Under the pieces are notes generated by a model. The model was not told the DNA's origin and ran no database searches. It saw only the letters and a program-made list of their open reading frames with translations. A DNA stretch of 60,091 bases from a bacterium (GTDB lineage Bacteria > Actinomycetota > Acidimicrobiia > Spongiisociales > Spongiisociaceae), in contig JAPPGV010000054.1 of NCBI GenBank assembly GCA_028821235.1, positions 1-60,091 of the forward strand, read 5' to 3'. A program made the position numbers and the translations under genes. Below, piece after piece: positions 41,906 through 60,091 of the stretch. How positions within the stretch are numbered: the first letter of the stretch is position 1; each line of letters starts with the position of its first letter.

Positions 41906-41991
41906 TCGTCCGGCGTAGTCTTCTCCGGCTGTGGCCGGCTCCAAGCACGCTGTACTCGTCTACCGTTCCTGGTAGCCAGAGAGGAGGGGCA

Positions 41992-42207: not shown

Positions 42208-42210
42208 CCG

Positions 42211-42948
42211 ATGGACGTGAGCGCCTGGATCGGGTCGCTGCGCTCCGAGGGCCGGCGCATGGCCACTGTGGCTGCCGGCCTGTCCCTGGATGATCCGGTG
42301 CCAACCTGTCCCGAGTGGAACGTGCGGCAGTTGTTGCGCCACACCGGCTGGGTGCACCGATGGGCGGGCACGATGGTCCGGGATGCCAGGCCGGAGCCTC
42401 CCGGCCGTGAGGATATGCTCCCCGGCGGCTGGCCCCCCGACGGAGGGCTGGTGGACTGGTTCCGGGAGGGTCACGCGCGGCTGGTGTCGGCCCTGGAGTC
42501 GGCCCCCGACGATCTCGACTGCTGGACCATCATGCAGATGCCCGACTCCCGGGCGTTCTGGGCGCGGCGCCAGGCCCACGAGACCGCCATCCATCGGGTT
42601 GACGCCGAGTTGGTCGCCGGCGCCGTCTCCGGATTCGATGCGGAACACGCCGCGGACGGGATCGACGAGTTGATGGTGTTCTTCATCTCGCGACCCGACC
42701 GCGGTCCGAGAGCTCCCGAGGCTAAGACCCTCAGGGTGGTCGCCACCGATGCGGGCCGTCACTGGACGGTCTCCTTCGGACCGGCCGACTCGGCCGGCCG
42801 TGCCGGGGGAGAGGGGCCGGTGGATTGCACCGTGACGGGCCGGGCCTCCGACCTGTACCTGTACCTCTGGAACCGGATCCCGCCCGATGACATCCGGGTG
42901 GAAGGCCGGGGCGACGTGCTCGACTACTGGAGCGAGACCTCGTTCTGA
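42211..42948 (+). CDS. Maleylpyruvate isomerase-family (mycothiol-dependent, DinB-like) protein
   Basis: A 245-residue protein: P-T-C-P-E-W-N-V-R-Q-L-L-R-H-T-G-W-V-H-R-W (first metal His), a middle R-R-Q-A-H-E-T-A-I-H-R-V-D-A-E (two further His ligands) and a C-terminal SCP2-like domain ending W-N-R-I-P. This is the actinobacterial TIGR03083/MDMPI family, whose characterised member uses mycothiol. The actual substrate is unknown. It supports an actinobacterial host. Confidence 0.88.
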   Translation: MDVSAWIGSLRSEGRRMATVAAGLSLDDPVPTCPEWNVRQLLRHTGWVHRWAGTMVRDARPEPPGREDMLPGGWPPDGGLVDWFREGHARLVSALESAPDDLDCWTIMQMPDSRAFWARRQAHETAIHRVDAELVAGAVSGFDAEHAADGIDELMVFFISRPDRGPRAPEAKTLRVVATDAGRHWTVSFGPADSAGRAGGEGPVDCTVTGRASDLYLYLWNRIPPDDIRVEGRGDVLDYWSETSF

Positions 42949-42987
42949 TGGGTCGGCGCGACCGGATCAGGCCGCGAAATTCACTTG

Positions 42988-43013
42988 GCGGCAATTACCG
43001 CGATTGCTGCCGC
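42988..43013. terminator. Hairpin between MDMPI-family gene and thyA
   Basis: GCGGCAAT (42988-42995) pairs with ATTGC-T-GCCGC (43003-43013, one bulge). There is no T-run, so this is a possible weak terminator. A TTGACC hexamer at 43028-43033 beyond it may be a -35 for thyA, but no well-spaced -10 is evident. Confidence 0.35.
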
Positions 43014-43063
43014 GCGCCTGATTAACTTTGACCTGTGTTCCCGACATACCGCACCGGTAGACG

Positions 43064-43858
43064 ATGCAGCAGTATCTGAGCTTGCTGCAAGAGGTCAGGT
43101 ACGAGGGAACCCTGAAGGAGGACCGTACCGGCGTCGGCACCTACAGCCTCTTCGGACGCCAACTCCGCTTCGACCTCGACAGGGGTTTCCCCCTGCTCAC
43201 GACCAAGAAGGTCCACCTGCGCTCGGTGGTCCATGAGCTCCTGTGGTTCCTGGCCGGCGACTCCAACGTCCGGTATCTGCAGGACAACGGGGTGTCTATC
43301 TGGGACGCGTGGGCCCACCCGGGTACCGGCGACCTGGGTCCTATATACGGCGTGCAGTGGCGCAGCTGGACCGGCGCCGACGGCCGGACCATCGACCAGC
43401 TGTCAGACGTGGTGGACCGGATCCGTACCGACCCCGACTCCCGGCGGCTGGTCGTCTCGGCCTGGAACGTGTCCGACCTGCCGGAGATGGCGCTCCCTCC
43501 GTGCCACGTGCTGTTCCAGTTCTACGTGACCCACGGTCGCCTGAGCCTCCAGCTCTACCAGCGCAGCGCCGACATCTTTCTGGGAGTGCCCTTCAACATC
43601 GCCTCGTACTCGCTGCTCCTGATGATGGTGGCCAGGGTGACCGGCCTCCGTCCGGGAGAGTTCGTCCACACCTTCGGTGACGTGCACCTGTACAGGAACC
43701 ATGTCGAGCAGGCCGATGCGCAGCTCCGGCGGCGGCCCAGGCCTCTCCCGTCGCTGGTCCTTCCCGAGCGGAACGACCTGTTCTCGTATCGCTACGAGGA
43801 CATCCGCGTGATCGGCTACGACCCCCACCCGGCCATCCCGGCACCGGTGGCCGTCTGA
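43064..43858 (+). CDS. thyA: Thymidylate synthase ThyA
   Basis: A 264-residue dTMP-forming enzyme, the same length as E. coli ThyA. It shows the N-terminal D-R-T-G-V-G-T, L-T-T-K-K, W-F-L-A-G-D, nucleophile Cys147 in [27 protein letters not shown] and G-D-V-H-L-Y. It uses methylene-tetrahydrofolate. No dihydrofolate reductase gene is adjacent. Confidence 0.97.
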
Positions 43859-43970
43859 GCATCGGCCCGCTCGCACCACCCGCCGCGGGCAGAGTCTGCA
43901 ACCACGGTGGAGCTTGTAATCTGGTCCGTGGATCGGTACCGGATCATCCGGACCGCAACCAGGAGCGTGA

Positions 43971-44846
43971 ATGAAGATCGTCGTGGTAGGCCCGGGACGG
44001 GCCGGTGGATCGCTGGCGGTGGCCGCTCGAGCCGCAGGTCACGAGTTGGTGGGTATCTTCGGCCGCCGGACCCGCCACCAGCCGCTGGCCGAACACCTCG
44101 GAGTCCGGATCCGCCTTATCGGAGAGCCGATGCCCGAGGCCGATCTGCTGGTGGTGGCGGTCCGGGACGATGCCCTTCCCGAGGTGGCCGCAACCCTGTC
44201 TCCGCCGGCGGACCGGATACGCGGCGCCATCCATCTCTCGGGCCTGACATCGGTCCGGGTCCTGGACCCGCTCCGCGAGGCCGGCCTGGTGACCGGCAGC
44301 TTCCACCCGCTGCAGACCTTGCCGGGCTGGGAGGCCGGATCGCGCGCCTTCCCAGGCGCCTTCGTCGGGATAACCGCCCCCGACGATTGGGCTACCGAGC
44401 TGGAGTCCTTCGCCCGGTCGCTCGGGTGCCGACCGTTCCGGGTGGCGGATGATCGCAAGCCGCTGTACCACGCGGCGGGAGGCGTGGCCGCCAACTACGT
44501 CTCGGCGGCGCTCTGCGTGGCGGAGTACATGTTCACGGAGGCCGGCGTCGATCCCGCGGCGGCCCGCCCGATGGTGGAACAGGCGGTTGCCAACGCCTTC
44601 GACCTGGGATTCCGGGAGTCGTTGACCGGGCCGATCTCGCGGGGCGACCTCGGGACCGTCCGGCGCCAGATCGAGGCGGTCGACCGCCACGCGCCGGACG
44701 CATCGGAAGCCTTCCGGGTTCTGACCAGGCTGACCGCCCAGCTGGCCGGGAGGGTCGAGGTGGAGGAGATACTCCAGGTGACCGCCCGCCCGCCGGGAGG
44801 ATCTCGTTCGCCGGGTCCGGTCATCGAGGGAGGGGGGTCGCCCTGA
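43971..44846 (+). CDS. Rossmann/DUF2520 protein, candidate PanG-type ketopantoate reductase
   Basis: 291 residues. The N-terminal V-V-G-P-G-R-A-G-G-S is a dinucleotide-binding loop and V-V-A-V-R-D-D follows; the C-terminal half (Y-H-A-A-G-G-V-A-A-N-Y, then a helical bundle) is DUF2520, a 6PGDH-like domain. The gene is immediately before panC, as in mycobacteria, and DUF2520-type proteins have been linked to alternative ketopantoate reductases (PanG). The role in pantothenate synthesis is therefore likely but inferred. Confidence 0.75.
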   Translation: MKIVVVGPGRAGGSLAVAARAAGHELVGIFGRRTRHQPLAEHLGVRIRLIGEPMPEADLLVVAVRDDALPEVAATLSPPADRIRGAIHLSGLTSVRVLDPLREAGLVTGSFHPLQTLPGWEAGSRAFPGAFVGITAPDDWATELESFARSLGCRPFRVADDRKPLYHAAGGVAANYVSAALCVAEYMFTEAGVDPAAARPMVEQAVANAFDLGFRESLTGPISRGDLGTVRRQIEAVDRHAPDASEAFRVLTRLTAQLAGRVEVEEILQVTARPPGGSRSPGPVIEGGGSP

Positions 44847-44848
44847 GA

Positions 44849-45778
44849 GTGGTAACCACCATGGCGGAGGCCAGGGCGCAGGCCGGCGGCTTGGTGGGAC
44901 TCGTGCCGACCATGGGCTTCCTCCACGAGGGCCACCTCTCGCTGATGGAGCGCGCGGTGGCCGAGTGCGATCAGACGATGGCCACGCTCTACGTGAACCC
45001 CTTGCAGTTCGAAGACCCCGCCGACCTGGCCCGCTACCCGAGCGATCCGGACCGCGACCTGACGCTCGCCGAGGCATGCGGCGTGGACCTGATGGTCGTG
45101 CCCGGCCCGGAGGAGATGTTTCCGAGCAGGCCCCTGACCGGAGTGACGGTGGCCGGTATCGGGGAGCGGCTGGAAGGGGAGTTCCGTCCCGGCCACATGG
45201 ACGGGGTGGCCACCGTGGTGACCAGGTTGCTGGCGGGCCTGCAGCCCCACCGGGCCTACTTCGGGCGGAAGGACGCCCAGCAGCTCGCGTTGATCGCCCG
45301 CCTCGTCCAGGACCTGGGTTTCCCGGTCGAAGTGGTGGGCTGCCCGCTCGTGAGGGAGGTCGACGGCCTGGCCTTGTCGTCGCGCAACGTCCTGCTGGGA
45401 GCGCGCCGAGCCGAGGCTCTGGCCCTGTCGATCGGGCTGATGCTGGCGGCCGACCGGTTCGACCGGGGTGAGCGGAGAGCTACCGTGTTGGAGGCGGCCG
45501 TGCGGAGCGCGGTTCCCGAGGATGCATTGGAGTACGCCCGTCTGTGCGAGGCCGCCACGATGACCCCGGCGACCATCGCCGAGGGCGAGACGGTTCTGGT
45601 GGCGGCTGCGCGCTTCGGGCCGGTCCGGATCATCGATAACGTTCATCTGGTCGCCGACCGTCATGGCGCGTCGGCGGACCGCGGAGTCAGGCTGGGACGG
45701 CCCAGCCTCCTTTACGGATCGGAGGGAACCATGACCGCGCGTGAACAGGCCATGGAGCCACCGGGCGGGGCGGCCTGA
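44849..45778 (+). CDS. panC: Pantoate-beta-alanine ligase PanC
   Basis: A 309-residue pantothenate synthetase: V-P-T-M-G-F-L-H-E-G-H-L-S-L-M (HIGH-like), Y-V-N-P-L-Q-F, R-Y-P-S-D-P-D-R-D, F-R-P-G-H-M-D-G-V-A-T-V-V, Y-F-G-R-K-D-A-Q-Q and L-S-S-R-N (KMSKS-like region). GTG 44849 follows a GAGGGAGG block; the previous gene ends 2 nt before it. It is followed by coaX without panD, which usually lies between them in mycobacteria. Confidence 0.95.
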   Translation: MVTTMAEARAQAGGLVGLVPTMGFLHEGHLSLMERAVAECDQTMATLYVNPLQFEDPADLARYPSDPDRDLTLAEACGVDLMVVPGPEEMFPSRPLTGVTVAGIGERLEGEFRPGHMDGVATVVTRLLAGLQPHRAYFGRKDAQQLALIARLVQDLGFPVEVVGCPLVREVDGLALSSRNVLLGARRAEALALSIGLMLAADRFDRGERRATVLEAAVRSAVPEDALEYARLCEAATMTPATIAEGETVLVAAARFGPVRIIDNVHLVADRHGASADRGVRLGRPSLLYGSEGTMTAREQAMEPPGGAA

Positions 45779-45780
45779 CC

Positions 45781-46557
45781 ATGTTCCTGGCAATCGACAT
45801 CGGCAACACCCAGACGGTGATCGGTCTGTTCGACGGTTCCGAGATTGTCGCCCGTTGGCGCCTCTCGAGCGGTCGGGAACGGACCGAGGACGAGTTCACG
45901 ATCCTGTTGCGGGGCTTGCTGGGCCCGACCGGCTATCGCGCCGCCGACTTCGATGGGGCGGCCATGTCTTCGGTGGTTCCGCCGGTGGCAACCGCCCTGC
46001 GCTCGTCGCTGGAGAAGCTGGTCGGGTCGCGGGTTCTGGTGGTGGGGCCGGGGGTGCGGACCGGTATGGCCATCAAGATCGACAATCCCCGGGAGGTAGG
46101 GGCCGACCGGGTGGTCAACTCCGTGGCGGCGCGGGAGCGCTACGGCGCTCCCTCAGTGGTGGTGGACTTCGGTACCGCCACGACGTTCGACGTGGTGGAT
46201 GCGGACGGCGCCTACATCGGCGGCGCAATCGCTCCCGGGCTCGAAGTCTCGATGGACGCGCTGGTGTCGGCCACGGCCGCCCTGCGGCGGGTGGACCTGG
46301 TGGAGCCCCGGTCCGTGGTGGGTCGTGGCACCGTGGAAGCCATCCAGAGCGGGCTGCTCTACGGCTACGCCGGCCTGGTCGACGGAATCCTGGCCCGGAT
46401 CCTCGAAGAGGCGGAGGGGAGAGGCGGGGGGCCGGTGGCGACGGTTGCCACCGGCGGGATCGCCTCGGTAATAGTCCCGCTGTCGCAGTTGGTGAGCACC
46501 GTCGACCCCACCCTGACCCTTGAAGGCCTCAGGCTCGTATGGGAGCGCAATCTCTAG
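45781..46557 (+). CDS. coaX: Type III pantothenate kinase CoaX
   Basis: A 258-residue ASKHA-fold kinase: A-I-D-I-G-N-T-Q-T-V (phosphate-1), W-R-L-S-S-G-R-E-R-T-E-D-E-F, G-A-D-R-V-V-N, V-D-F-G-T-A-T-T-F-D (phosphate-2) and G-G-A-I-A-P-G. It phosphorylates pantothenate, the first step to coenzyme A. It begins 2 nt after panC. Confidence 0.95.
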   Translation: MFLAIDIGNTQTVIGLFDGSEIVARWRLSSGRERTEDEFTILLRGLLGPTGYRAADFDGAAMSSVVPPVATALRSSLEKLVGSRVLVVGPGVRTGMAIKIDNPREVGADRVVNSVAARERYGAPSVVVDFGTATTFDVVDADGAYIGGAIAPGLEVSMDALVSATAALRRVDLVEPRSVVGRGTVEAIQSGLLYGYAGLVDGILARILEEAEGRGGGPVATVATGGIASVIVPLSQLVSTVDPTLTLEGLRLVWERNL

Positions 46558-46637
46558 GAGTGTGCTCAACAACCGGACGTCTTCAGTGCCCTCCTATTGT
46601 CTTGATTCGGGGATTCGTCATCAGTCTCGGAGACATC

Positions 46638-46709
46638 GAGAACGCGAAAAACGCCGGAATACGCCCTCCCCGGCGGGCCCATCCCCCAGCCACCACCTCC
46701 TTCGGTCCG
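46638..46709 (+). repeat. Intergenic element copy C (GAGAACGCGAAAA family)
   Basis: GAGAACGCGAAAA (46638-46650), then CGCCGG pairing with CCGGCG, GGGCCC, CCCCCAGCCACCACC and a final GGTCCG. It begins 81 nt after the coaX stop, pointing toward lysS 321 nt further on. The 472-bp gap shows no gene; a GTGAC-TG-GTCAC inverted repeat near 46881 is the only other structure noted. Confidence 0.7.
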
Positions 46710-47029
46710 AACGCGTCCCGCTATCCCCCTACGGGTCCGCTCCCGAATTGATCCCGGTTCCGGTTCCCTCGACGTCGAAAGCAGGAAACCGGCGGTGCTT
46801 GTGACTGCCGGACAGTATGCGGCAGGTATGTGACGTGTTCAACCCCTTTGTCCGGACGCCGGACCCGCGCCGTCCGCCACGGTGACTGGTCACAGAACAC
46901 GGCGACGAAGGACCCGGGACACCAGCTCCAGCGTCTCATATGTAGGGCTTTATGGGAGTAGGGGGGGTGGTGGGCTTTGGGAACACGAATGCTCAGGGCT
47001 ATCCGCCGGGGCGAGTAGCCTGCCGACCG

Positions 47030-48553
47030 ATGGCTGAGCCCGAGACACCACCCGAGCGCGAGGTTCCCGAAGGGGCCGGTCTGGCCGAGCACCCTCTTAC
47101 CTCGCGTCGCCTGGACAAGGTCGCCCGGTTACGCGCCGGTGGCGTCGAGCCCTACCCGCTGGGATACGACCGGGACGCAGCCGCCGCCGAGCTGCACGAG
47201 AGGTTCGGCAGCCTGGAGGCGGACACCAGGACCGGGGTGGAGGTCCGGGTGGCCGGACGCCTCATGAACACCCGGCGCCTCGGCCGGTTGATCTTCGGTG
47301 TGCTCCAGGACTATTCGGGACGTATCCAACTGTTCGCCGAGGCCGGGGGTCTCGGCGAGGAGGGTTTGGCCGGCTTCGAGGATCTGGATCAGGGCGACTG
47401 GATCTGGGCCCTAGGGGAGGTGATGACCACCCGCCGTGGCGAGTTGAGCGTCCACCTGGCCGACTTCGCACTGCTGGCCAAGAGCCTGAGGCCCCTGCCG
47501 GCCAAGTGGCACGGACTCAAGGACACGGAGGTCCGGTTCCGCCGCCGCGAGCTGGACCTGCTGGTCAACCCCGAATCCCGGCGGATAGCAGAGGTCCGGG
47601 CCGGGGTGGTGTCCGAGTTGCGCCGCCAGTTCGAGGAGCGGGGTTTCGTCGAGGTGGAGACCCCGGTGCTGCAGGTTCAGGCGGGCGGCGCGCTGGCCCG
47701 TCCGTTCGAGACCTACCACAACGCGCTCGGGCTACCGATGTACCTGCGGATCGCCACGGAGCTGCACCTCAAGCGGCTGGTCGTGGGCGGCATGGAGCGG
47801 GTGTTCGAGCTGGGCCGGGTCTTCCGGAACGAGGGGATCGACGCCAGGCACAACCCCGAGTTCACCACCCTAGAGGCCTACCAGGCGCTGGCCGACTACC
47901 ACGACATCATGCGCCTGATGGAGGAGGTGATCCCGGCTGTGGCGGAGCGGGTGATCGGCGCCACCGGGCTCAGCTACCAGGGTCGTCCCCTCGACCTCCG
48001 GCCTCCCTACCGGCGGGTCCCCATGCTCGAGCTGGTGTCCGAGGCGCTGGGCGCCGCCATCACGCCGTCCACTCCCGTTGCCGAGCTACGAGCCCTGGCC
48101 GGCTCGGCCGGTTTGCAGGCCGATCAGGATTGGGGATTCGGGAAGCTGGTCGAAGAGGTGTTCGACCAGCGCGTCGAGCAGCATCTGTGGGAGCCCACCT
48201 TCGTGATCGACCATCCCATCGACATCTCCCCGCTGGCCCGCCAGCACCGTTCGGTCGAGGGCCTGGTGGAACGCTTCGAGCTATACATCGCCGGCGCCGA
48301 GTATGTGGACGCGTTCACCGAACTCAACGATCCGCTCGACCAGCGGGCTCGGTTCGAGGCTCAGGCGGCAGCCCGCGCGGCCGGTGACCAGACCGCCCAC
48401 CCGGTGGACGAGAGCTTCCTGCAGGCGCTGGAACTGGGCATGCCCCCCACCGGAGGCCTCGGCATCGGCGTCGACCGGCTGGTGATGCTGTTGACCGGCC
48501 AGCGGAATCTCCGCGAGGTGGTCCTGTTCCCCCACCTGCGCCCTGAAGCCTAG
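47030..48553 (+). CDS. lysS: Lysyl-tRNA synthetase (class II)
   Basis: A 507-residue enzyme. An OB-fold anticodon domain (V-A-G-R-L-M-N-T-R, L-Q-D-Y-S-G-R-I-Q-L) is followed by class II motif 1 (F-V-E-V-E-T-P-V-L), motif 2 (F-R-N-E-G-I-D-A-R-H-N-P-E-F-T) and motif 3 (G-L-G-I-G-V-D-R-L-V-M). The motif order and P-L-A-R-Q-H segment fit LysS. The expected K-L-F-E-T-like segment is replaced by R-P-F-E-T-Y-H-N. ATG 47030 lacks an obvious ribosome site. Upstream of it lies element C. Confidence 0.92.
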   Translation: MAEPETPPEREVPEGAGLAEHPLTSRRLDKVARLRAGGVEPYPLGYDRDAAAAELHERFGSLEADTRTGVEVRVAGRLMNTRRLGRLIFGVLQDYSGRIQLFAEAGGLGEEGLAGFEDLDQGDWIWALGEVMTTRRGELSVHLADFALLAKSLRPLPAKWHGLKDTEVRFRRRELDLLVNPESRRIAEVRAGVVSELRRQFEERGFVEVETPVLQVQAGGALARPFETYHNALGLPMYLRIATELHLKRLVVGGMERVFELGRVFRNEGIDARHNPEFTTLEAYQALADYHDIMRLMEEVIPAVAERVIGATGLSYQGRPLDLRPPYRRVPMLELVSEALGAAITPSTPVAELRALAGSAGLQADQDWGFGKLVEEVFDQRVEQHLWEPTFVIDHPIDISPLARQHRSVEGLVERFELYIAGAEYVDAFTELNDPLDQRARFEAQAAARAAGDQTAHPVDESFLQALELGMPPTGGLGIGVDRLVMLLTGQRNLREVVLFPHLRPEA

Positions 48554-48611
48554 TCGCTAGTCGTTAGTGCTTAGTAATAACTAGCGACTAGGAACTAGCA
48601 ACTAGCGACTC
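48551..48611. repeat. Degenerate CTAGCGACTAG repeat tract between convergent genes
   Basis: TAGTCGCTAGT (48551-48561) and ACTAGCGACTA (48580-48590) form a perfect 11-bp inverted repeat; a further ACTAGCGACT is at 48601-48610, with degenerate copies between. The tract supplies the stop codons of both convergent genes and may act as a bidirectional terminator, although no T-run is present. Confidence 0.6.
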
Positions 48612-49609
48612 GCTCCGACGGATCCCACTCGGTCGACTAGGAAGTCACCCATGCGCCGGAAGACCTCCCGGGCCTCGATGTCGGGCAGGCCGGCGGTGGC
48701 TTCGGCGGCCCTGGCGAGCCGGTGCCGGCACTCGTCGAGCACCCGCTGGACGTAGCCGCCCTCCCTGACCAGGCCGATCACCTCACCGACCGCATCCTCG
48801 GTTACGGGTCCCTCCTGTTGCAGGAGGGCCATGATCCGGCTTCCTGCCGACCCTTCCAGGGCGTAGAGGACCGGCAGCGTGTACACGCCATGGCGGATGT
48901 CGCTCCCGGCCGGCTTACCCAGTTCCTCCCCGGTGGACACCAGGTCGAGGGCGTCGTCGGTCAGCTGGAACACGATCCCCAGCTCCCAGGTGGCGGTGGA
49001 CACCGCCTCGACCGTATCGTCCGCCGCGTCGGCGGCCAGCGCACCCAGGCGGGCCGAGGTCCTGATGAGGCTGGCGGTCTTACCCCCGATCACCCGGTAA
49101 TGATCGGCGGGCCCGTGGCTGACGTCGCCTGTCAGCTTGAGCTCCAGGGCCTGGCCGGTCACGAGGTCCCGGTAGGTGTGCGCCAGGAGCTCGACCGAAG
49201 CCATGCCCAGGTACGTAGCAGCGATCTCCGATGCCCGGGCGATGAGGAAGTCGCCGGCCAGGATGGCGAGCGAGTTGTCCCACCTGGCATTGACCGACGT
49301 GGTGCCGCGGCGCGTGTGGGCGCCGTCCATCACGTCGTCGTGGTACATGGATCCGATATGGATCAGCTCCACCGCCGCGCCGGCCTCGATCAGCCGGCGG
49401 TCGCGGGTGGGCCCGAACTCACCGGCCAGCTGGGTGAGGACCGGCCGGTAGCGCTTGCCTCCCGCGAGCAGCAGGTGTTGGGAGATCTCGGTGAGAAAGT
49501 CGTCACCGGCGCGGGACACGTCGAGCAGCCGTTGCTCGACGCGTTCCATTCGCTCCCAGACCCCGGGAATCTCGATCAGGGCCCTGATGGTGTCGGTGGA
49601 CAATGGCAT
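48602..49609 (-). CDS. Polyprenyl diphosphate synthase
   Basis: A 335-residue trans-isoprenyl synthase: G-G-K-R-Y-R-P, first aspartate-rich motif D-D-V-M-D (residues 91-95), G-K-T-A-S-L, and second motif L-T-D-D-A-L-D. It condenses isopentenyl diphosphate to a long-chain product for menaquinone or similar. The small side chain pattern two to five residues before the first motif (H-I-G-S-M-Y-H) suggests a long product. It is divergent from clpC. Confidence 0.92.
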   Translation of the reverse strand: MPLSTDTIRALIEIPGVWERMERVEQRLLDVSRAGDDFLTEISQHLLLAGGKRYRPVLTQLAGEFGPTRDRRLIEAGAAVELIHIGSMYHDDVMDGAHTRRGTTSVNARWDNSLAILAGDFLIARASEIAATYLGMASVELLAHTYRDLVTGQALELKLTGDVSHGPADHYRVIGGKTASLIRTSARLGALAADAADDTVEAVSTATWELGIVFQLTDDALDLVSTGEELGKPAGSDIRHGVYTLPVLYALEGSAGSRIMALLQQEGPVTEDAVGEVIGLVREGGYVQRVLDECRHRLARAAEATAGLPDIEAREVFRRMGDFLVDRVGSVGASR

Positions 49610-49770
49610 CCGTTCGCCGCCGCGGTAGAGCGCCGTATGGTAAGCGGATTGCCCCGCTCTTCTCCCATCGGCTTGTCACCGGCTTGCGTTATAGTCGCCG
49701 GTTACCGGGACGAGTACTCCTAAGCTTGTATCCTGTGAGCCAGAGCCGCCGAGTCGGAGGTTGACCGCCA

Positions 49771-52260
49771 GTGTTCGAACGCTTCACCGACCGGGCCCGC
49801 AGAGTGGTGGTCCTGGCCCAGGAAGAAGCGCGGCTACTCAACCACAACTACATCGGCACCGAGCACATCCTCCTCGGCCTCATCCACGAAGGCGAGGGGG
49901 TCGCCGCCCGGGGTCTGCTCAACCTCGGTATCCGGCTGGACTCCGTGCGTAGCCAGGTGGTGGAGACCATCGGCCAGGGGCACCAGTCCCCGGCCGGCCA
50001 CATCCCGTTCACTCCCAGGGCCAAGAAGGTACTGGAGTTGAGCCTGCGGGAGGCCCTGCAGCTGGGACACAACTACATCGGCACCGAGCACATCCTCCTC
50101 GGCCTGATCCGCGAGGGTGACGGGGTGGCCGCGCAGGTGCTGGAGAAGTTGGGCGCCGACCTGCCCAGGGTGCGGCATACGATAATCCAACTCCTCTCCG
50201 GCGGTTCGGGAGACGAGCCCGCCCGGGCCGGTACCGCTCCGTCCGGCAGGGGTTCGTCCCAATCGGGTTCCACCGTGCTGGACCAGTTCGGACGCAACCT
50301 CACCCATATGGCCCGTGATCACGCGCTCGATCCGGTGATCGGTCGCTACCCCGAGATCGAACGGGTCATGCAGATCCTCTCGAGGCGCTCCAAGAACAAC
50401 CCGGTCCTGATCGGTGAGCCCGGGGTGGGCAAGACGGCGATCGTGGAGGGCCTGGCCCAGCGGATCGTGGCGGGCGAGGTACCCGACACCCTCAACACCA
50501 AGCAGATCTACACCCTCGACCTGGGCGCCCTGGTGGCGGGGTCCCGCTACCGCGGCGACTTCGAGGAACGCCTCAAGAAGGTCCTGAAGGAGATCAAGAA
50601 CCGGGGAGACATCGTCCTCTTCATCGATGAGATCCACACCTTGGTGGGTGCGGGAGCGGCGGAGGGCGCCATCGACGCCGCCAGCATTCTGAAGCCCATG
50701 CTGGCCCGGGGCGAGCTGCAGACCGTCGGGGCGACCACCCTGGAGGAGTACCGTAAGTACCTGGAAAAGGACTCCGCCCTGGAGCGCCGGTTCCAGCCCA
50801 TTCACGTGGACGAGCCCACCGTTGCCGAGACGGTCCGGATACTGCACGGGCTCAAGGACCGGTACGAGGCCCATCACTCGGTGCGCTTTACGGACAGCGC
50901 GCTCAAGACGGCCGCCACCCTCGCCGACCGCTACATCTCGGATCGCTTCCTCCCCGACAAGGCCATCGACCTGATCGACGAGGCGGGCAGCCGCAACCGG
51001 ATCTTCCGGAGCTCCTCCAGCTCCCAGATCCGCCAGATCGACGACCAGTTGAGCGCGGTCCGCAACGACAAGATGGAAGCGGTCTCCGCGCAGCAGTTCG
51101 AGCGGGCGGCCCAACTCCGCGACCAGGAACGGGCTCTGATCTCCGACCGGGCCCGCTACAAGGCCGAGTCGGCCGAGTCGTCCGCTGTGGTGGACGACAC
51201 GTTGATCGATGAGGACGAGATCGCCGACGTGCTCGCCCAGTGGACCGGCATTCCGGTCCATCGGCTCACCGAGGAGGAGACCGCCCGGTTGGTCCACATG
51301 GAGGAGGAGCTCCACAAGCGGATCATCGGGCAGCACGACGGGATCTCGGCGGTGAGCCGGGCCATCCGCCGCACCAGGGCCGGCCTCAAGGATCCGAAGC
51401 GGCCGAGCGGTTCGTTCATCTTCCTCGGGCCGTCCGGAGTGGGGAAGACCGAGACCGCCAAGGCGCTGGCGGAGTTCCTGTTCGGCGACGAGGACTCTCT
51501 CATCCAGCTCGACATGTCGGAGTACATGGAGAAGCACACGGTGAGCCGCCTGGTCGGATCGCCACCCGGTTACGTGGGTTACGACGAGGGTGGCCAGCTC
51601 ACCGAGGCGGTGCGCCGCAAGCCCTTCTCGGTGGTGCTGTTCGACGAGATCGAGAAGGCCCATTCCGACGTCTTCAACACCCTTCTCCAGATCCTGGAGG
51701 ACGGTCGCCTGACCGATGCTCAGGGTCGGGCCGTGGACTTCAAGAACACCGTGATCATCATGACCTCCAATCTGGGTTCCGAGTCGTTGCGCAAGAAGGC
51801 GGTGGGATTCCAGCAGGAGAGCGACGAGGTCACCTACGAGAAGATGAAGGAGAGGCTGACCGACAACCTGAAGAAGCACTTCCGGCCCGAGTTCCTCAAC
51901 CGGATCGACGAGGTGATCGTCTTCCACCAGCTCACCACCGACGAGGTCAAACAGATCGTCGACCTGATGCTGGTACGGGATCGGGAGCAGTTGGCCACCC
52001 AATCCCTCGACCTGGTGCTCAGCGACGCCGCCAAGACCTTCCTGGTCTCCAGGGGCTACGACCGCGACCTGGGCGCCCGCCCGTTGCGCAGGGCCATCCA
52101 GCGGTACCTCGAGGATCCGCTGGCCGAGCAGGTGTTGCTGGGCGAGTACACGCCGGGTACCACCATCGTGGTGGATGCTGATCCCGACGGCGACTCGCTC
52201 ATCTTCGAGATGGTCGACACCCCCGACAGCCCCCCGTTGGATCTGGTCGACTCCTCCTGA
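49771..52260 (+). CDS. clpC: ATP-dependent Clp protease ATPase subunit ClpC
   Basis: An 829-residue HSP100: two N-terminal Clp repeats (each with [14 protein letters not shown]), AAA-1 Walker [10 protein letters not shown], a UVR middle segment ([13 protein letters not shown]), and AAA-2 Walker [10 protein letters not shown]. It unfolds substrates for ClpP. GTG start at 49771. The 161-bp upstream gap, shared with the divergent synthase, has promoter-like bits (TATAGT at 49690) but no well-spaced pair. Confidence 0.96.
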
Positions 52261-52405
52261 CTGTCGGCTGTCTAACCGCTCCGCGCATCCGGCGCGAGGC
52301 GGTCACATCCTCCGGCTCCCCATTAGCGGCGACCGTTCACCCGGCGTAGAATGTCCAACCCACCCGTCCCTGTACATCGGGGCCCGAATCAAAGGATCCA
52401 GAATC

Positions 52406-54475
52406 ATGCGCGTTAAGACCAGGCTGTTGATCGTGCTGGCGGCCTTCGGGCTGCTGGCGGCCGCTTGCGGCGGCGATGAAACGCCCGCCACGACCGCAGC
52501 CCAGGCGACCTCCGCGACCTCCGCCACCACCCAGGCTCCGGCGGGTGAGCCCATCAGTATCGGTCTGGTCTATGACATCGGCGGTCGGGGTGATCAGTCG
52601 TTCAACGACGCGGCGGCGGCGGGCCTCGACAAGGCGGCCGCGGAGTTGGGGACACAGAACTCGGAGGCGTCTGCCAACGAGGACGGGACCAACCGTGAGG
52701 AGCTGCTGGCCTTGCAGGCGTCGGAAGGCTCCGATCTGGTGATCGGGGTCGGGTTCCTGTTCGGCGAGCCGATGGCGAACGTGGCGGCGGAGTATCCGGA
52801 CACGAGCTTCGCGATCGTGGACTCAGTGGTGGACGCTCCAAACGTGGCCGGTCTCATCTTCGCCGAGGAGCAGGGGTCCTTCCTGGTGGGTGTGATAGCG
52901 GCTCTCAAGACGCAGACCGGTACGGTCGGTTACATCGGTGGGGTGAACATCCCGTTGATCCACGCTTTCGAGGCCGGGTTCCTGGCCGGGGTGCAAGCCA
53001 TCGACCCCTCTATCCAGGTGATCTCCCAGTACGTGACGGAGCCGCCCGATTTCAGCGGGTTCAACGATCCGGCGGCGGGTCGGGTGATCGCGCAGTCGAT
53101 GTTCGAGCAGGGCGCCGATGTGGTGTACCACGCGGCGGGCGGCACCGGGGGCGGTCTGTTCCAGGCCGCCAAGGACTACTCCGAGGCCAACAACACCCAT
53201 GTGTGGGCGATCGGGGTCGACTCCGACCAGTACCTCACCGCGGGTGCGGACTTCCAGCCCTACATCCTGACGTCGATGCTCAAGCGGGTGGACGTGGCGG
53301 TGTTCAACACCATCCAGGCGATCCAGTCGGGCACGTTCGCGCCGGGTCCGCAGGTGTTCGACCTGTCGGTGGACGGTGTCGGGTACTCGACCTCCGGCGG
53401 TTACGTGGACGACATCGCGGGCCAACTCGACAACTGGAAGGGGCGGATCGTCTCCGGTGAGATCGTGGTGAGCCGCGACCCGACCGACCTGGGGGTGGTG
53501 CCTCCGCCGCCCGCGACAGGCGAGCCGGTGAGCGTCGGTCTGGTCTATGACATCGGCGGTCGGGGTGATCAGTCGTTCAACGACGCGGCGGCGGCGGGCC
53601 TCGACAAGGCGGCCGCGGAGTTGGGGACACAGAACTCGGAGGCGTCTGCCAACGAGGACGGGACCAACCGTGAGGAGCTGCTGGCCTTGCAGGCGTCGGA
53701 AGGCTCCGATCTGGTGATCGGGGTCGGGTTCCTGTTCGGCGAGCCGATGGCGAACGTGGCGGCGGAGTATCCGGACACGAGCTTCGCGATCGTGGACTCA
53801 GTGGTGGACGCTCCAAACGTGGCCGGTCTCATCTTCGCCGAGGAGCAGGGGTCCTTCCTGGTGGGTGTGATAGCGGCTCTCAAGACGCAGACCGGTACGG
53901 TCGGTTACATCGGTGGGGTGAACATCCCGTTGATCCACGCTTTCGAGGCCGGGTTCCTGGCCGGGGTGCAAGCCATCGACCCCTCTATCCAGGTGATCTC
54001 CCAGTACGTGACGGAGCCGCCCGATTTCAGCGGGTTCAACGATCCGGCGGCGGGTCGGGTGATCGCGCAGTCGATGTTCGAGCAGGGCGCCGATGTGGTG
54101 TACCACGCGGCGGGCGGCACCGGGGGCGGTCTGTTCCAGGCCGCCAAGGACTACTCCGAGGCCAACAACACCCATGTGTGGGCGATCGGGGTCGACTCCG
54201 ACCAGTACCTCACCGCGGGTGCGGACTTCCAGCCCTACATCCTGACGTCGATGCTCAAGCGGGTGGACGTGGCGGTGTTCAACACCATCCAGGCGATCCA
54301 GTCGGGCACGTTCGCGCCGGGTCCGCAGGTGTTCGACCTGTCGGTGGACGGTGTCGGGTACTCGACCTCCGGCGGCCACGTGGACGACATAACGGCCGAG
54401 CTCGACGCCTTCAAGGAGAAGATCGTTTCCGGCGAGATCGTGGTGAGCCGCGACCCCGCCGACTACGCGGGTTGA
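52406..54475 (+). CDS. BMP-family nucleoside-binding lipoprotein with duplicated domain
   Basis: 689 residues. Signal peptide with lipobox A-A-A-C (Cys21), a Thr/Ala-rich linker, then two BMP/Med periplasmic-binding domains (residues about 50-365 and 375-689) joined by V-P-P-P-P-A-T-G. Each opens I-G-L-V-Y-D-I-G-G-R-G-D or V-G-L-V-Y-D-I-G-G and continues D-Q-S-F-N-D-A. Normal family members have one domain. The DNA of the two domains is identical over 841 bp. It captures (deoxy)nucleosides for the transporter encoded next. A TAGAAT at 52347 may be the -10. Confidence 0.93.
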   Translation: MRVKTRLLIVLAAFGLLAAACGGDETPATTAAQATSATSATTQAPAGEPISIGLVYDIGGRGDQSFNDAAAAGLDKAAAELGTQNSEASANEDGTNREELLALQASEGSDLVIGVGFLFGEPMANVAAEYPDTSFAIVDSVVDAPNVAGLIFAEEQGSFLVGVIAALKTQTGTVGYIGGVNIPLIHAFEAGFLAGVQAIDPSIQVISQYVTEPPDFSGFNDPAAGRVIAQSMFEQGADVVYHAAGGTGGGLFQAAKDYSEANNTHVWAIGVDSDQYLTAGADFQPYILTSMLKRVDVAVFNTIQAIQSGTFAPGPQVFDLSVDGVGYSTSGGYVDDIAGQLDNWKGRIVSGEIVVSRDPTDLGVVPPPPATGEPVSVGLVYDIGGRGDQSFNDAAAAGLDKAAAELGTQNSEASANEDGTNREELLALQASEGSDLVIGVGFLFGEPMANVAAEYPDTSFAIVDSVVDAPNVAGLIFAEEQGSFLVGVIAALKTQTGTVGYIGGVNIPLIHAFEAGFLAGVQAIDPSIQVISQYVTEPPDFSGFNDPAAGRVIAQSMFEQGADVVYHAAGGTGGGLFQAAKDYSEANNTHVWAIGVDSDQYLTAGADFQPYILTSMLKRVDVAVFNTIQAIQSGTFAPGPQVFDLSVDGVGYSTSGGHVDDITAELDAFKEKIVSGEIVVSRDPADYAG
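52560..53400 (+). repeat. Direct repeat copy 1 (841 bp) in BMP gene
   Basis: It reads identically to 53535-54375 at a constant 975-bp offset; shared predicted overlapping frames on both strands also agree. Sequence diverges on both sides, so the duplication is bounded within the binding-domain coding sequence. Confidence 0.95.
53535..54375 (+). repeat. Direct repeat copy 2 (841 bp) in BMP gene
   Basis: Second copy of 52560-53400. The flanks differ: upstream G-E-P-V-S-V versus G-E-P-I-S-I, downstream G-H-V-D-D-I-T-A-E versus G-Y-V-D-D-I-A-G-Q. A recent duplication or ongoing gene conversion would explain the exact core. Confidence 0.95.
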
Positions 54476-54534: not shown

Positions 54535-56046
54535 ATGAGCGTCGCGGTGCGGTTGAAGGGAATCACCAAGCGATTCCCCGGTGTGCTGGCCAACGACCGC
54601 ATCGACCTCGTAGTGGAGGCGGGCGAGATCCACGCCATCTGCGGCGAGAACGGCGCCGGCAAGTCGACGCTCATGAAGATCCTCTACGGGATGCAGGCTC
54701 CCGATGAGGGAAGCATCGAGGTGCTCGAGCAGGAGCGCACCTTCTCCTCCCCCAGGGAGGCGATCGACGTGGGTATAGGGATGGTCCACCAGCACTTCAT
54801 GCTGGCCGACAACCTCACCGTGATCGAGAACGTGATCCTCGGTGCGGAGCCGTCCAAGGGGGCGTTGATCGACTTCGCCACCGCCCGGTCCCGGCTGAGG
54901 GAGCTGGGTGAGGCCTACGGCTTGGCGCTCGACCTCGATGACGCCGTCGGTACCTTGGAGGTGGGGGAGAGGCAGCGGATCGAGATCATCAAGATCCTCT
55001 ACCGCGGGGCGCGCATCCTCATCCTGGACGAGCCCACCGCGGTGCTGGTTCCCCAGGAGGTGGAGGAGTTGTTCCGCAACCTGAGGGAACTCAAGACCGA
55101 GGGACACACCATCATCTTCATCGACCACAAGCTGGACGAGGTGCTGGAGATAGCAGACACGATCACGGTGCTCCGCCAGGGCCGGTCGGTGGCGCGGGTC
55201 AAGCCGGAGGACGTGACCGCCCAGGATCTGGCCGAGTTGATGGTGGGCTCGGAACTTCCCACTCCCGAGACGCGTGAGGCGACCGTCACCGACCGGACCG
55301 CCGTCGAGGTCAAGGGGATCTCGGTGGTGGATGAGGCCGGGGTGACGAGGTTGCGGGACGTCGGATTCTCGGTCCAGTGCGGCGAGATCGTCGGGGTGGC
55401 AGGTGTGGAGGGCAACGGCCAGGGTGAGTTGGTGGAGGCGATCCTGGGAATCGCACCGGTGACCGGAGGCTCCATCCATCTGCACGGCGACGACGTGACC
55501 GGCTGGTCGGTGCGGCAACGCCGGGAGGCCGGCCTCGGGTATATCCCCGAGGATCGCCACCGGCGGGGACTGCTGCTGCCGGCGCCGGTCTGGGAGAACA
55601 GCATCCTGGGTCACCAGACGCGGCGGCGCTTCCTGAGCTCCCGGGTATGGATCGACGATGAGGCTTCCAGGGACCATGCCGCCAACGTGGTCGAGCGCTT
55701 CGACGTGCGCACACCCGGTGTCCACACGCCCGTCCATGCCCTTTCCGGCGGCAACCAGCAGAAACTGGTGGTGGGCCGGGAACTGGCCATCGAATGCAAC
55801 CCGCTGATCGCAGCCCACCCCACGAGGGGAATCGACGTCGGCTCGCAGGCCGCCGTCTGGGAGGACCTGCGCCGGGCCCGGGCGGAAGGTTTGGGACTGC
55901 TGCTGATCTCGGCCGATCTCGAGGAGCTGATCGGCCTGAGCGACACGCTCCTAGTGATGCTGCGCGGTGAGATCGTGGCCAGGCTGGATCCGGCCAGGGT
56001 CACGCCGAGGGAGTTGGGCGCCTACATGACAGGGGCAGCCGCGTGA
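54535..56046 (+). CDS. Nucleoside ABC transporter, double ATPase subunit
   Basis: 503 residues with two nucleotide-binding domains. The first has G-E-N-G-A-G-K-S-T, a Q-loop in H-Q-H-F-M-L, signature L-E-V-G-E-R-Q-R and Walker B L-I-L-D-E-P-T. The second has the degenerate P-loop G-V-E-G-N-G-Q-G-E and signature L-S-G-G-N-Q-Q-K with A-A-H-P-T-R-G-I-D, as usual for BMP/nucleoside-type (NupA/YufO) transporters. ATG 54535 follows the BMP gene by 59 nt. Confidence 0.93.
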   Translation: MSVAVRLKGITKRFPGVLANDRIDLVVEAGEIHAICGENGAGKSTLMKILYGMQAPDEGSIEVLEQERTFSSPREAIDVGIGMVHQHFMLADNLTVIENVILGAEPSKGALIDFATARSRLRELGEAYGLALDLDDAVGTLEVGERQRIEIIKILYRGARILILDEPTAVLVPQEVEELFRNLRELKTEGHTIIFIDHKLDEVLEIADTITVLRQGRSVARVKPEDVTAQDLAELMVGSELPTPETREATVTDRTAVEVKGISVVDEAGVTRLRDVGFSVQCGEIVGVAGVEGNGQGELVEAILGIAPVTGGSIHLHGDDVTGWSVRQRREAGLGYIPEDRHRRGLLLPAPVWENSILGHQTRRRFLSSRVWIDDEASRDHAANVVERFDVRTPGVHTPVHALSGGNQQKLVVGRELAIECNPLIAAHPTRGIDVGSQAAVWEDLRRARAEGLGLLLISADLEELIGLSDTLLVMLRGEIVARLDPARVTPRELGAYMTGAAA

Positions 56047-57164
56047 GCTGGACCGGTGTGCGCCGTGTGGTAGGGCCGCCATTGGCCGCGGTGGGGCTGG
56101 CGCTCCTGGTGGCCGCGCTCGTTCTGGTGGTGTCCGGGGCCGACCCCCTCGTGGCCTTCGGCAACATATGGGAGTACGGCAGCCGGCTGGAGACGGTCAT
56201 CGAGTCGTTCAACCGGGCCACCCCGCTCTACCTGTCGGGCATCGCCTTCGCCATCGCCATGAGGATGAACCTCTTCCAGATCGGCGTGGAGGGCCAGTAC
56301 ATCCTGGCGGCATTCTTCGCCGCCTACGTCGGCGCCGGCGTAGGTTCCCTGTTCCCGCCGCTCCACATAGCCATCATCCTCGTGACGGCGATGATCGTGG
56401 GTGCGGCCTGGGCCGGGCTGGCGGGCTGGATGAAGGTGACCCGGAACGTCCACGAGGTCATCTCCACCATCATGCTCAACGCCATCGCGGTGTCCGGCGT
56501 GGTGTCGTTTCTGCTGGGCCGGTGGAAGATCGAGTCGGAGTCGCTCGACACCCGCCTGGGTGACATCGCCACCACCGGTTGGTTCCCCAGCCTCAACCCT
56601 ATCGTCGAGCTGGTGACCCGCGAGATCAAGCGGGTCGAGTTGACCGGGTTCATCCTCGTGGCGGCGCTGGTGGGCGTCGCGTACCACCTCATCATCAACC
56701 GCTCCCGGCTCGGATACGACCTGCGCGCCACCGGCGCCAACCCCTGGGCCGCCGAGGCGAGCGGCGTGCCGCCCAAGCGGACCATCGTCCTGGCCATGCT
56801 GCTCAGCGGGGCGGTGGCCGGGCTGGTCGGCATGGCGGACCTGCTCGGAGACCAGCACTTCTACAGCCTCCGGTTCCCGCAGGGCCTGGGCTTCGCCGGG
56901 ATAGCGGTGGCGCTGCTCGGCCGCAACCACGCGGTGGGGGCGGCCGTGGCCGCGTTGGCGTTCGGCTGGCTGGAACGGGCGTCGGGCGTGCTGGAGGTAC
57001 GCGGGGACGCCCCGCGTGAGATCGTCACGATCATGGTGGCCGTGATCATCCTGTTCGCCGTGATCGCCTACGCACTGGCTCAGCGGCGCAGGAGGATCGA
57101 GGCCGCAGCGGCCGCGTCCTCACAGGTCGAGAGCGCCGCCGGAGCCGAGGAGGCCGACACGTGA
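56043..57164 (+). CDS. Nucleoside ABC transporter permease 1
   Basis: A 373-residue multi-pass inner membrane protein of the BPD_transp_2 family. It includes F-A-I-A-M-R-M-N-L-F-Q-I-G-V-E-G-Q-Y-I, the coupling-region V-H-E-V-I-S-T-I-M-L-N and R-A-T-G-A-N-P-W-A-A-E-A-S-G-V. GTG/ATG overlap with the ATPase gene is 4 bp (start 56043), and it overlaps the next permease likewise. It is the YufP/NupB-type subunit. Confidence 0.92.
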   Translation: MSWTGVRRVVGPPLAAVGLALLVAALVLVVSGADPLVAFGNIWEYGSRLETVIESFNRATPLYLSGIAFAIAMRMNLFQIGVEGQYILAAFFAAYVGAGVGSLFPPLHIAIILVTAMIVGAAWAGLAGWMKVTRNVHEVISTIMLNAIAVSGVVSFLLGRWKIESESLDTRLGDIATTGWFPSLNPIVELVTREIKRVELTGFILVAALVGVAYHLIINRSRLGYDLRATGANPWAAEASGVPPKRTIVLAMLLSGAVAGLVGMADLLGDQHFYSLRFPQGLGFAGIAVALLGRNHAVGAAVAALAFGWLERASGVLEVRGDAPREIVTIMVAVIILFAVIAYALAQRRRRIEAAAAASSQVESAAGAEEADT

Positions 57165-58444
57165 GTGCCCTGCGCGAGCGGCCGACGATGAGCCTCGGGG
57201 CGAACCTCGTGAGCGGGAATCGCCGCTGGATCGTCTACGGGTTGGGCGCGGTGCTCCTGCTCGCCTCCACCCAGCAGTTCGCCTCCCTGCCGACGGACGA
57301 TCTGACCTCGAGCGGAACGTGGGCCATCGCCCTGGCCTGGTCGGTGCCCATCCTGATGGCCGGCATGGGCGGGATCTTCTCGGAACGGTCCGGGGTGGTC
57401 AACATCGGCCTGGAGGGGATGTTGATCCTGGGTACCTGGTTCGGGGCCTTCGGGACCATGATCGGCGGCCCCTGGTTCGGAATGCTCCTCGCGGCCGTGG
57501 CAGGCGCCATGGGAGGCCTCGTCATGGCGGTGGCCGCGGTCGGGTTCAACGTGGATCACATAATCGCCGGGGTCGCCATCAACCTGATGGCTCCCGGCCT
57601 GACCCGGTTCCTGTCCGACCTGCACTTCTCGGATCGCGGCGGCTCGATCACTCAGTCCCCGACCATTTCCGGGGTGAGCAACTTCACGCTGCCGGTCCTG
57701 GCGGGCGGCACGATCTTCGGTTGGGAGAGCCCGGACGTCCTCGGCGCGATAGAGCGCGGCGGAATCTTCTTCATCTCGGACCTGGCCGGGATACTGCGCG
57801 GCTTCATGTTCCAGATGTCATGGCTCACCCTGATCGCCTACCTGGCGCTACCCATCTCGATACTCGTCCTGTGGAAGACCAGTTTCGGGCTGCGGCTGCG
57901 CAGCTGCGGCGAGCACCCGCACGCAGCCGACTCGTTGGGCGTCAACGTCTACAAGTACAAGTACTACGGCGTGGTGATCAGCGGCTTCCTGGCCGGGCTC
58001 GGGGGCGGTTTCCTGGCGATCCAGCTGTCCGGGCTGTACAAGGAGGGCCAGACCCAGGGGAAGGGCTACATCGGGTTGGCGACCATGATCTTCGGTAACT
58101 GGAACCCGATCGGCACCGCACGCGGGGCGTTGCTCTTCGGTTTCACCGAGACCCTGCGCCTTCGGGACGAGAACGCCGCCCACGGCCTGCTGCTGCTGGT
58201 GGTCCTCGCCATCGCCTTGCTGGTGCTGTGGCGCATCCTGAAGCGGAGGGGATACACCGGGACGCTGCAGCTGGCCATAGTGGCGATCGCGGTGGGGTTC
58301 TGGTACATGAACTCGACCAGCGTTCCCAACCAGCTCCCGGCCATCACCCCCCACATCGCGGTCCTCGTGGTGCTGCTGTTCGCCACCTCCCGCCTCCGCC
58401 CACCCGCCGCCGACGGCCTCCCCTTCCGCAAGGGCGAGACGTAG
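57161..58444 (+). CDS. Nucleoside ABC transporter permease 2
   Basis: 427 residues, about ten hydrophobic segments. F-S-E-R-S-G-V-V-N-I-G-L-E-G-M-L is the signature of the second permease (YufQ/NupC-type); V-D-H-I-I-A-G-V-A-I-N and L-R-S-C-G-E-H-P-H-A-A-D-S-L-G-V follow. A C-terminal extension of roughly 100 residues carries extra membrane helices. It is coupled to permease 1 by a 4-bp overlap and ends the operon. Confidence 0.92.
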   Translation: MSALRERPTMSLGANLVSGNRRWIVYGLGAVLLLASTQQFASLPTDDLTSSGTWAIALAWSVPILMAGMGGIFSERSGVVNIGLEGMLILGTWFGAFGTMIGGPWFGMLLAAVAGAMGGLVMAVAAVGFNVDHIIAGVAINLMAPGLTRFLSDLHFSDRGGSITQSPTISGVSNFTLPVLAGGTIFGWESPDVLGAIERGGIFFISDLAGILRGFMFQMSWLTLIAYLALPISILVLWKTSFGLRLRSCGEHPHAADSLGVNVYKYKYYGVVISGFLAGLGGGFLAIQLSGLYKEGQTQGKGYIGLATMIFGNWNPIGTARGALLFGFTETLRLRDENAAHGLLLLVVLAIALLVLWRILKRRGYTGTLQLAIVAIAVGFWYMNSTSVPNQLPAITPHIAVLVVLLFATSRLRPPAADGLPFRKGET

Positions 58445-58519: not shown

Positions 58520-58843
58520 TCAGTACTGGATGTCGAGGGCGTAGCGCAGAGCCCGATCCATCATGGCCCTCTTGAACTCGCCAAGCCGTCCCACCGGACT
58601 TGAGTCGAGATACGAGATCGGGACGGTGATGAGGCTGTCGCAGTTGACTGCACAGGGTTCGGGTAGTCCTTCGTCTGGACCTACCTCTACTTCCGACCTG
58701 ATACCCCGCACGGTACGGGTGATGGGCGCGCACGTGACAGAGGTGAGCACCGCGGCCGCTGCGTTCCGCGTAACCACGCACACGGGCCGCCTTCCGGCAG
58801 GTGGACCGAGATCTGCCCAGTAGATCTCGTTTCTCAAAACCAC
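58520..58843 (-). CDS. MazF/PemK-family mRNA interferase toxin
   Basis: A 107-residue protein: R-N-E-I-Y-W-A-D-L-G-P-P-A-G-R-R-P-V-C-V, then V-T-C-A-P-I-T-R-T-V-R-G and C-A-V-N-C-D-S-L-I-T-V-P are the MazF barrel motifs (usual 110 residues). MazF cleaves mRNA at short sites. GTG 58843 directly abuts the antitoxin stop (TAG-GTG). Confidence 0.9.
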   Translation of the reverse strand: MVLRNEIYWADLGPPAGRRPVCVVTRNAAAAVLTSVTCAPITRTVRGIRSEVEVGPDEGLPEPCAVNCDSLITVPISYLDSSPVGRLGEFKRAMMDRALRYALDIQY

Positions 58844-59089
58844 CTACCACTCGGGGACAGTGCGGGCTGCTAGCCGTGCCGCTGATCGTACGAGCGCCGG
58901 ATCCGGAGGTAGGCGTCGGTAGGCCTCGGCCAGTTCGCGGTCGGCGGCCGCAGCTTCCTCGGCTGCGATAACCGCTCGTGCTCCACGGCGCAGGAGTTCG
59001 GAACGGTTGGTGCCCGATGCCTTGGCCAAGCGGTCTAGTTGGTCCACGAGGTTGTCATCGAGCTGTACCAGAACTTCACGGCGGGCCAT
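58844..59089 (-). CDS. Ribbon-helix-helix antitoxin paired with MazF
   Basis: An 81-residue protein: E-V-L-V-Q-L-D-D-N-L-V-D-Q-L-D-R-L-A, then G-T-N-R-S-E-L-L-R-R-G-A-R is a classic ribbon-helix-helix DNA-binding domain. The C-terminal Ala/Arg-rich tail would bind the toxin. ATG at 59089, next to paired CATATGG sites that probably are its operator. Confidence 0.87.
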   Translation of the reverse strand: MARREVLVQLDDNLVDQLDRLAKASGTNRSELLRRGARAVIAAEEAAAADRELAEAYRRLPPDPALVRSAARLAARTVPEW

Positions 59090-59212: not shown

Positions 59213-60091
59213 CTAGCCGGCGGCTGCGTCGAAGATCATCTGCTTGAAGCGGTCTGTGTCTATGGCCTTGACTACCTCGACGTTGGCCGGATTTCCCGTT
59301 ACGTCCAAGGAGTCGACCACCGACATTCCCCTGGTCAGCGGGCTCTCTGCCTCCACGTCCACGTAGTGGCGGGAGCTGGCGGTCACCACCCTGCGCTTGT
59401 CGATCGCCACCGCCATGGCGGTCGGGTCGGGGAGTTCCAGCCGGCGGGTGCCCGACTGCCGGTGGGCGGACTCGATCGCAGTGGAGTTGCAGTCGAGGAA
59501 GAAGTGGGCCAGGGGAGTGTCCAGTGCTCGGAGCGCGGACTGCTCGGTGGGGTCCAGGCCGGCCTCGCCGCGACAGATCTCCCAGCCGACCATCTCGATC
59601 GGAAGGCCGGAGGCGAAGACCATGCGGGCGGCGTGGGGATCGAACCACAGGTTGAACTCCGCCGCGGGGGTGACGTTGCCCACCTTGTTGGCGGTGCCTC
59701 CCATGACCACGCAGCGGCCCACCAGGTCCACGATGTCGGGCGCCTGTGCCAGGGCGAGCGCCACGTTGGTGAGCGGCCCGAGGGTGACCAGGGTGGAGCA
59801 GGGATTCCCGCGTATGTGGTTGATGAGGGCGCTTACGCCGTCCTCGTCCTCGGCGGATCGGGACGGGTGCGGGTATCCCTGGTCACCGAGCCCGTCCATC
59901 CCGTGGAACCAGGTAGCCGGGCGAGCCTTCACCAGCAGGGGACGGTCGGCGCCCGCGTAGACGGGTACGGCTGATCCGCACAACTCCGCTGTGTAGAGGG
60001 CGTTGCGGGTGGTGTCCTTCAGGGAGCAGTTACCGGCCACTGTCGTCATCGCCACCACGTCCACGTCGGGGTGGTTGAGGGCCATCGCCAG
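59213..60091 (-). CDS. Inosine-uridine nucleoside hydrolase family protein (5' end beyond window)
   Basis: About 293 residues are visible. V-A-M-T-T-V-A-G-N, P-V-Y-A-G-A, the active-site loop T-L-G-P-L-T-N-V-A-L-A, V-M-G-G and A-E-F-N-L-W-F-D-P-H-A-A are IUNH motifs. The N-terminal D-x-D-x-G-x-D-D metal site is missing only because the window ends. It hydrolyses nucleosides to base and ribose, and lies near the nucleoside transporter, though on the opposite strand with a toxin-antitoxin pair between. Confidence 0.9.
   Translation of the reverse strand: MAMALNHPDVDVVAMTTVAGNCSLKDTTRNALYTAELCGSAVPVYAGADRPLLVKARPATWFHGMDGLGDQGYPHPSRSAEDEDGVSALINHIRGNPCSTLVTLGPLTNVALALAQAPDIVDLVGRCVVMGGTANKVGNVTPAAEFNLWFDPHAARMVFASGLPIEMVGWEICRGEAGLDPTEQSALRALDTPLAHFFLDCNSTAIESAHRQSGTRRLELPDPTAMAVAIDKRRVVTASSRHYVDVEAESPLTRGMSVVDSLDVTGNPANVEVVKAIDTDRFKQMIFDAAAG

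Follow-up and report, generated by a model that had tools for sequence, protein, structure and literature searches.

Receptors of the PnrA/BMP family (PF02608), among them TmpC/PnrA of Treponema pallidum (2FQW), BmpA and BmpD of Borrelia and the pneumococcal PnrA, carry a single lipobox and are encoded in ABC operons together with an ATPase and BPD_transp_2 permeases. The solved relatives consist of one domain, and their nucleoside pocket comprises a Phe sandwich, formed by two stacking residues, together with Asp and Lys contacts to the ribose (PMC13325309, PMC7093131). The gene described here, located in a 60,091-nt contig (the window) of a metagenome-assembled genome (MAG), shares with those systems the family, the pocket residues, the single lipobox and the type of operon. 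In contrast to the solved proteins, its product carries two domains on one anchor; the single-domain architecture that is customary, though not defining, for PnrA/BMP proteins is replaced by two domains in one open reading frame (Table 1).

Base-by-base comparison and a repeat finder both identified an exact direct repeat of 841 nt at an offset of 975, an identity beyond any chance model. The two copies are in frame, and PF02608 was recovered separately on each half of the protein (D1, 9.5e-59 and 199.3 bits; D2, 6.5e-61 and 206.4 bits), both exceeding the gathering cut-off of 24.1 bits. These results bear out an earlier sequence-only reading, which had claimed an exact internal duplication giving rise to a two-domain BMP lipoprotein with diverged linker and outer ends. 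Indeed, unlike the 841-bp core, the linker and both outer ends differ between the copies; mismatches start at once on both flanks (first at 52559/53534 on the left and at 53401/54376 on the right), and divergence climbs beyond the repeat, with 32 mismatches across 52500-52559. The only other repeated 30-mers in the window were nine within the ClpC N-terminal repeat. A consensus scan for a promoter found none, and two terminator-like matches were identical sites within the repeat copies. Cys21, the predicted lipidation site, is invariant across the eight double-domain proteins described below, and the single signal peptide would provide one lipid anchor for both domains.

Table 1. Coordinates of the two-domain gene, its segments and the downstream genes in the window.
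Feature	Position	Strand	Evidence or remark
Two-domain PnrA/BMP lipoprotein gene, 689 aa	52406..54475	+	Single uninterrupted ORF (ATG at 52406, stop at 54475); PF02608 twice; full-length in 7 further genomes
Signal peptide, lipobox-like LAAAC, predicted lipidated Cys21 (codon 52466-52468)	52406..52468	+	Translation
Repeat copy 1, 841 nt, bulk of domain D1	52560..53400	+	Identical to copy 2 throughout
C-terminal part peculiar to D1 (DNWKGRI...; last helix in the modelled domain), not homogenised	53401..53488	+	Copy-specific sites common to several species
Proline-rich interdomain linker LGVVPPPPATG	53489..53521	+	Translation; proline-rich linker in 8/8 genes
Repeat copy 2, 841 nt, bulk of domain D2	53535..54375	+	Identical to copy 1 throughout
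C-terminal part peculiar to D2 (DAFKEKI...DYAG stop), not homogenised	54376..54475	+	Copy-specific sites common to several species
ABC ATPase, two nucleotide-binding domains, 503 aa	54535..56046	+	PF00005, two stretches; follows the BMP gene in relatives too
Permease A	56043..57164	+	PF02653; start overlaps the ATPase gene; order conserved
Permease B	57161..58444	+	PF02653; overlapping start; order conserved
Inosine-uridine-type nucleoside hydrolase, its start lying outside the window	59213..60091	-	PF01156, 1.3e-82

The double-BMP gene lies downstream of clpC (49771-52260) and heads a complete nucleoside-type ABC import operon with a salvage enzyme encoded nearby. The downstream transport genes, with BPD_transp_2 permeases, are closely spaced or overlapping, the permeases being separate open reading frames not fused to the binding domains; a nucleoside hydrolase gene is also close to the operon in most of the double-domain relatives. 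The nearest named models for the transport genes were those of NCBIfam for a putative B6 transporter, whose scores were far under the cut-offs and thus give no basis for a substrate assignment. The model ABC_BMP_B6 (putative vitamin B6 binding protein) was likewise rejected for the receptor (180.3 bits against a curated cut-off of 400).

Two side observations concern the surroundings of this operon. Genes for a PemK/MazF-like toxin (58520-58843) and a ribbon-helix-helix antitoxin (58844-59089) lie on the reverse strand, separating permease B from the nucleoside hydrolase; as only about 30 bp separate the permease B and hydrolase genes in a relative (L037), the toxin-antitoxin pair looks like an insertion. 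Elsewhere in the same genome, a single-domain BMP paralogue (L005, G000:C99:6929-7996; 53% identical) adjoins its own ABC ATPase gene, and this locus, found in most congeners too, is a second PnrA-type transporter.

A homologue search across 149 related genomes, within an overall sampling that covered only Actinomycetota, yielded the full-length double-domain gene in eight genomes (G000, which contains the window, G002, G004, G005, G008, G009, G010 and G011). They belong to three genera, all of the window's own family Spongiisociaceae. In each of the eight, the complete gene sits at one and the same clpC-linked locus, accompanied by the same ATPase and permease genes. Incomplete copies, cut off by a contig end or a gap, turned up in G003, G001, G013 and G006, as well as on contig C36 of the window's MAG. 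The double gene was absent from two genomes of a fourth genus, both of low completeness, G007 carries only a paralogue, and a phylum-wide sample of 396 genomes yielded no additional full-length double match. Other Acidimicrobiia carry a single-domain gene, which in L018, L019, L049, L051 and L053 is flanked by the same two genes, clpC and that of the ATPase; the earlier statement that members of this protein family carry one domain is correct for all full-length relatives found outside the window's bacterial family. Long open frames in other Actinomycetota had hinted at double ORFs, but these proved to be separate neighbouring genes. In Streptosporangiaceae and other members of the phylum (L070, L076, L087, L096, L104, L127-L132), two distinct BMP genes side by side precede a single ATPase gene, an independent route to two receptors per transporter.

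This distribution bears on the age of the duplication. A very recent duplication of a single-domain gene in the window's species, one of the two origins offered by the sequence-only reading, would fit the 841 identical bp and the fact that other families have a single-domain homologue at this locus. Nevertheless, its probability is close to nil, as the double form and a proline-rich linker are common to all eight genomes, D1- and D2-specific tail residues are common to relatives (at domain position 297, W in D1 and F in D2 in seven genes), and independent duplications with the same breakpoints would be needed in all relatives. Because the tails of D1 and D2 keep copy-specific sequence across genera, the tandem duplication is old, predating the split of the genera and probably dating to the ancestor of the window's bacterial family. 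The other origin offered earlier, duplication plus homogenisation by gene conversion, is supported by the tracts and concerted sites described below. The concern that the two-domain architecture might be an assembly artefact was dispelled, since this architecture recurs in eight genomes and one copy, that of G011, sits in a single contig of 3,007,243 bp (OY282370), a length that implies long reads.

D1 and D2 of the eight complete genes were aligned codon by codon. The longest exact run shared by the two halves was 936 nt in G009 (counted across a three-column gap present in both copies), 841 in G000, 621 in G002, 371+146 in G011, 338 in G005, 198 in G008, 128 in G004 and 68 in G010, and the agreement runs at polymorphic sites exceeded all 5000 permutations in seven of the eight genes (p<=0.0002; for G010, p<=0.0022). 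Within the tract shared by G000 and G002 there are 16 differing sites, and all 16 had changed in both copies; the ratio of such changes to any other variable pattern was 16:0 for this pair, 237:0 for G000/G009 and 117:1 for G011/G009. Summed over all pairs, concerted sites outnumbered positional ones by 12-30:1 in the core, versus 0.67:1 in the last 95 columns, where the model places the domain's C-terminal helix and tail. Counts of fixed differences based on seven or five genes are partly circular inside the tracts, as they include G000 and G002; in an independent version, 28 diagnostic sites were defined without these two genomes, and 15 of them fell in the last 96 columns.

Across genera the D1 tails follow the pattern NWK..I and lead into the proline linker, and the D2 tails follow FK..I...DY.G. 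An exception is G009, where the C-terminal helix was converted as well, although the last residues were not. Trees of these short tails, built with FastTree and then IQ-TREE, are in agreement at modest support: seven genes formed a D1 clade at 80% and the D2 clades stayed below 50%. Both copies in the window show one identical mosaic, in which columns 106-114 and 260 carry D2-type states and columns 248, 454 and 669-713 D1-type states; several exchanges in both directions are the simplest reading. Together, the greater likeness of the halves within than between genomes and the sharp ends of the tracts argue for concerted evolution by intragenic recombination, and the sequence data are equally compatible with gene conversion and with unequal crossing-over.

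The base-exact identity of the 841-bp copies depends on the assembler, because the bin holds two strains at this locus. The window is one contig of a 162-contig MAG with an estimated contamination of 4.99%. The second strain's copy (L116, G000:C36:1-15814, matching 37695-54110 of the window) shares with it exact blocks of 4470, 914, 660 and 545 bp amid DNA about 90% identical, a pattern that could reflect strain recombination or assembly chimerism. In G006 (L117, G006:C161) the scaffold of the double gene spans a run of roughly 100 N and only one of its domains is assembled, which illustrates how short-read assemblies lose the repeat.

The exact identity could therefore be partly assembler-made, and copies in other MAGs may have been evened out in the same way. 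A stronger version of this explanation, in which the copies truly differ by a few per cent and bubble collapse in the strain-mixed metagenome produced one consensus, would account for the exact blocks between the strains, for a sister-strain copy whose D1 and D2 are only 91.5% identical across 588 comparable columns, for the mosaic nature of the window copies and for the gaps or breaks inside the gene in G006, G001, G013, G003 and C36. We consider it unlikely, though worth keeping in mind, as C36 kept its D1 and D2 distinct in the same assembly and the D1 and D2 tails stay separate in nearly all genes. Moreover, the G011 gene, on its 3.0-Mb contig, has about two D1/D2 mismatches over the 529 aligned columns from 317 to 845, next to a 5' part that diverges strongly, which supports the view that the process itself is real and not made by assembly.

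Regarding function, the nearest solved relative is 2fqw (phmmer 2.7e-49, 305 residues). The residues aligning to TmpC are D57/D382, D63/D388, F66/F391, N67/N392, D139/D464, F219/F544, D272/D597 and K293/K618 (D1/D2), and none of the compared pocket residues varies in either domain among the eight proteins. Both the sequence and the predicted model indicate the two-lobed binding-protein fold: a single-domain AlphaFold model from 18 diverse sequences reached a pLDDT of 93.9 and a pTM of 0.91, and a full-length model from eight close sequences, with a pLDDT of 44.9, was unusable for the domain-domain arrangement. The pocket residues and the gene context make nucleoside binding by D1 and D2 likely. 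Between-species dN/dS was about 0.06-0.12, alike for D1 and D2 where estimable, and such similar purifying selection implies that neither half is decaying. As both domains keep the pocket residues under similar selection, the protein probably serves to offer two equivalent sites on each lipid anchor, and the earlier suggestion that two tandem domains raise capture efficiency is plausible.

Alternatively, the two copies might be kept for different substrates, their identity being a transient accident of conversion. In the least converted genes (G004, G008 and G010), D1 and D2 do differ at 27-47 aligned positions; even so, the invariance of the pocket and the recurrence of conversion in most lineages make this improbable.

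The explanation that we favor, with considerable confidence, is an ancestral tandem doubling of the PnrA/BMP domain in the receptor of a nucleoside importer, followed by recurrent homogenisation of D1 and D2 and resulting in two equivalent sites. According to this explanation, a single domain would have been duplicated in tandem in the ancestor of the window's bacterial family, and D1 and D2 would since have been rewritten from one another again and again through homologous recombination inside the gene, over stretches of about 130-940 bp; the 841-bp exact repeat would be the latest state of this process in the window's species. Comparison of the genes shows that mostly the linker, the C-terminal helix and the outermost ends escape overwriting and keep their D1- or D2-specific sequence. 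One anchored chain would then present two equivalent nucleoside sites, alternating in delivery to one permease pair, and homogenisation would keep the pocket and the docking surface alike in both halves. It may be hypothesized that the identity is maintained by selection for a common docking surface, although drift with frequent conversion would look similar. A more elaborate and tentative proposal, which we hold with less than even confidence, is that recurrent conversion, retained by selection for the shared permease-docking surface and pocket, blocks divergence, so that the chain acts as a bivalent shuttle in which positional specialisation is confined to the C-terminal helix and the linker.

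In summary, the locus combines ordinary parts in an unusual arrangement, and its duplication is real, old and family-wide, with recurrent homogenisation. The genes form a natural series, from fully matching to unmatched halves, of how a duplicated domain inside one gene stays uniform, and would allow a test of whether nucleoside uptake is faster with two identical receptors on one anchor. They also carry a warning: in short-read MAGs, genes of this kind are broken or gapped, and may be equalised.

No earlier report of a double BMP protein was found in the searchable literature, which did not cover subscription sources. The closest parallels in architecture are GlnPQ and related importers, which likewise have two tandem binding domains per chain, with a short linker between them (14 aa in GlnPQ), for one transporter; the tandem domains of GlnPQ work largely independently (PMC8025302). 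In GlnPQ, however, the domains are permease-fused, belong to another class of binding proteins and have different specificities, whereas the window encodes a free lipoprotein with near-identical domains. The adjacent BMP gene pairs of Streptosporangiaceae and other Actinomycetota likewise supply two BMP domains per transporter, but as two genes with clearly diverged copies, each with its own signal peptide where this was read out. Concerted evolution by gene conversion in bacteria has been described for rRNA operons (PMC6002687, PMC8022953) and release factors (PMC4530459), where, as in the present case, paralogous stretches are closer within a genome than between species and the tracts are patchy; the difference is that here the exchange would take place between the two halves of a single protein-coding gene.
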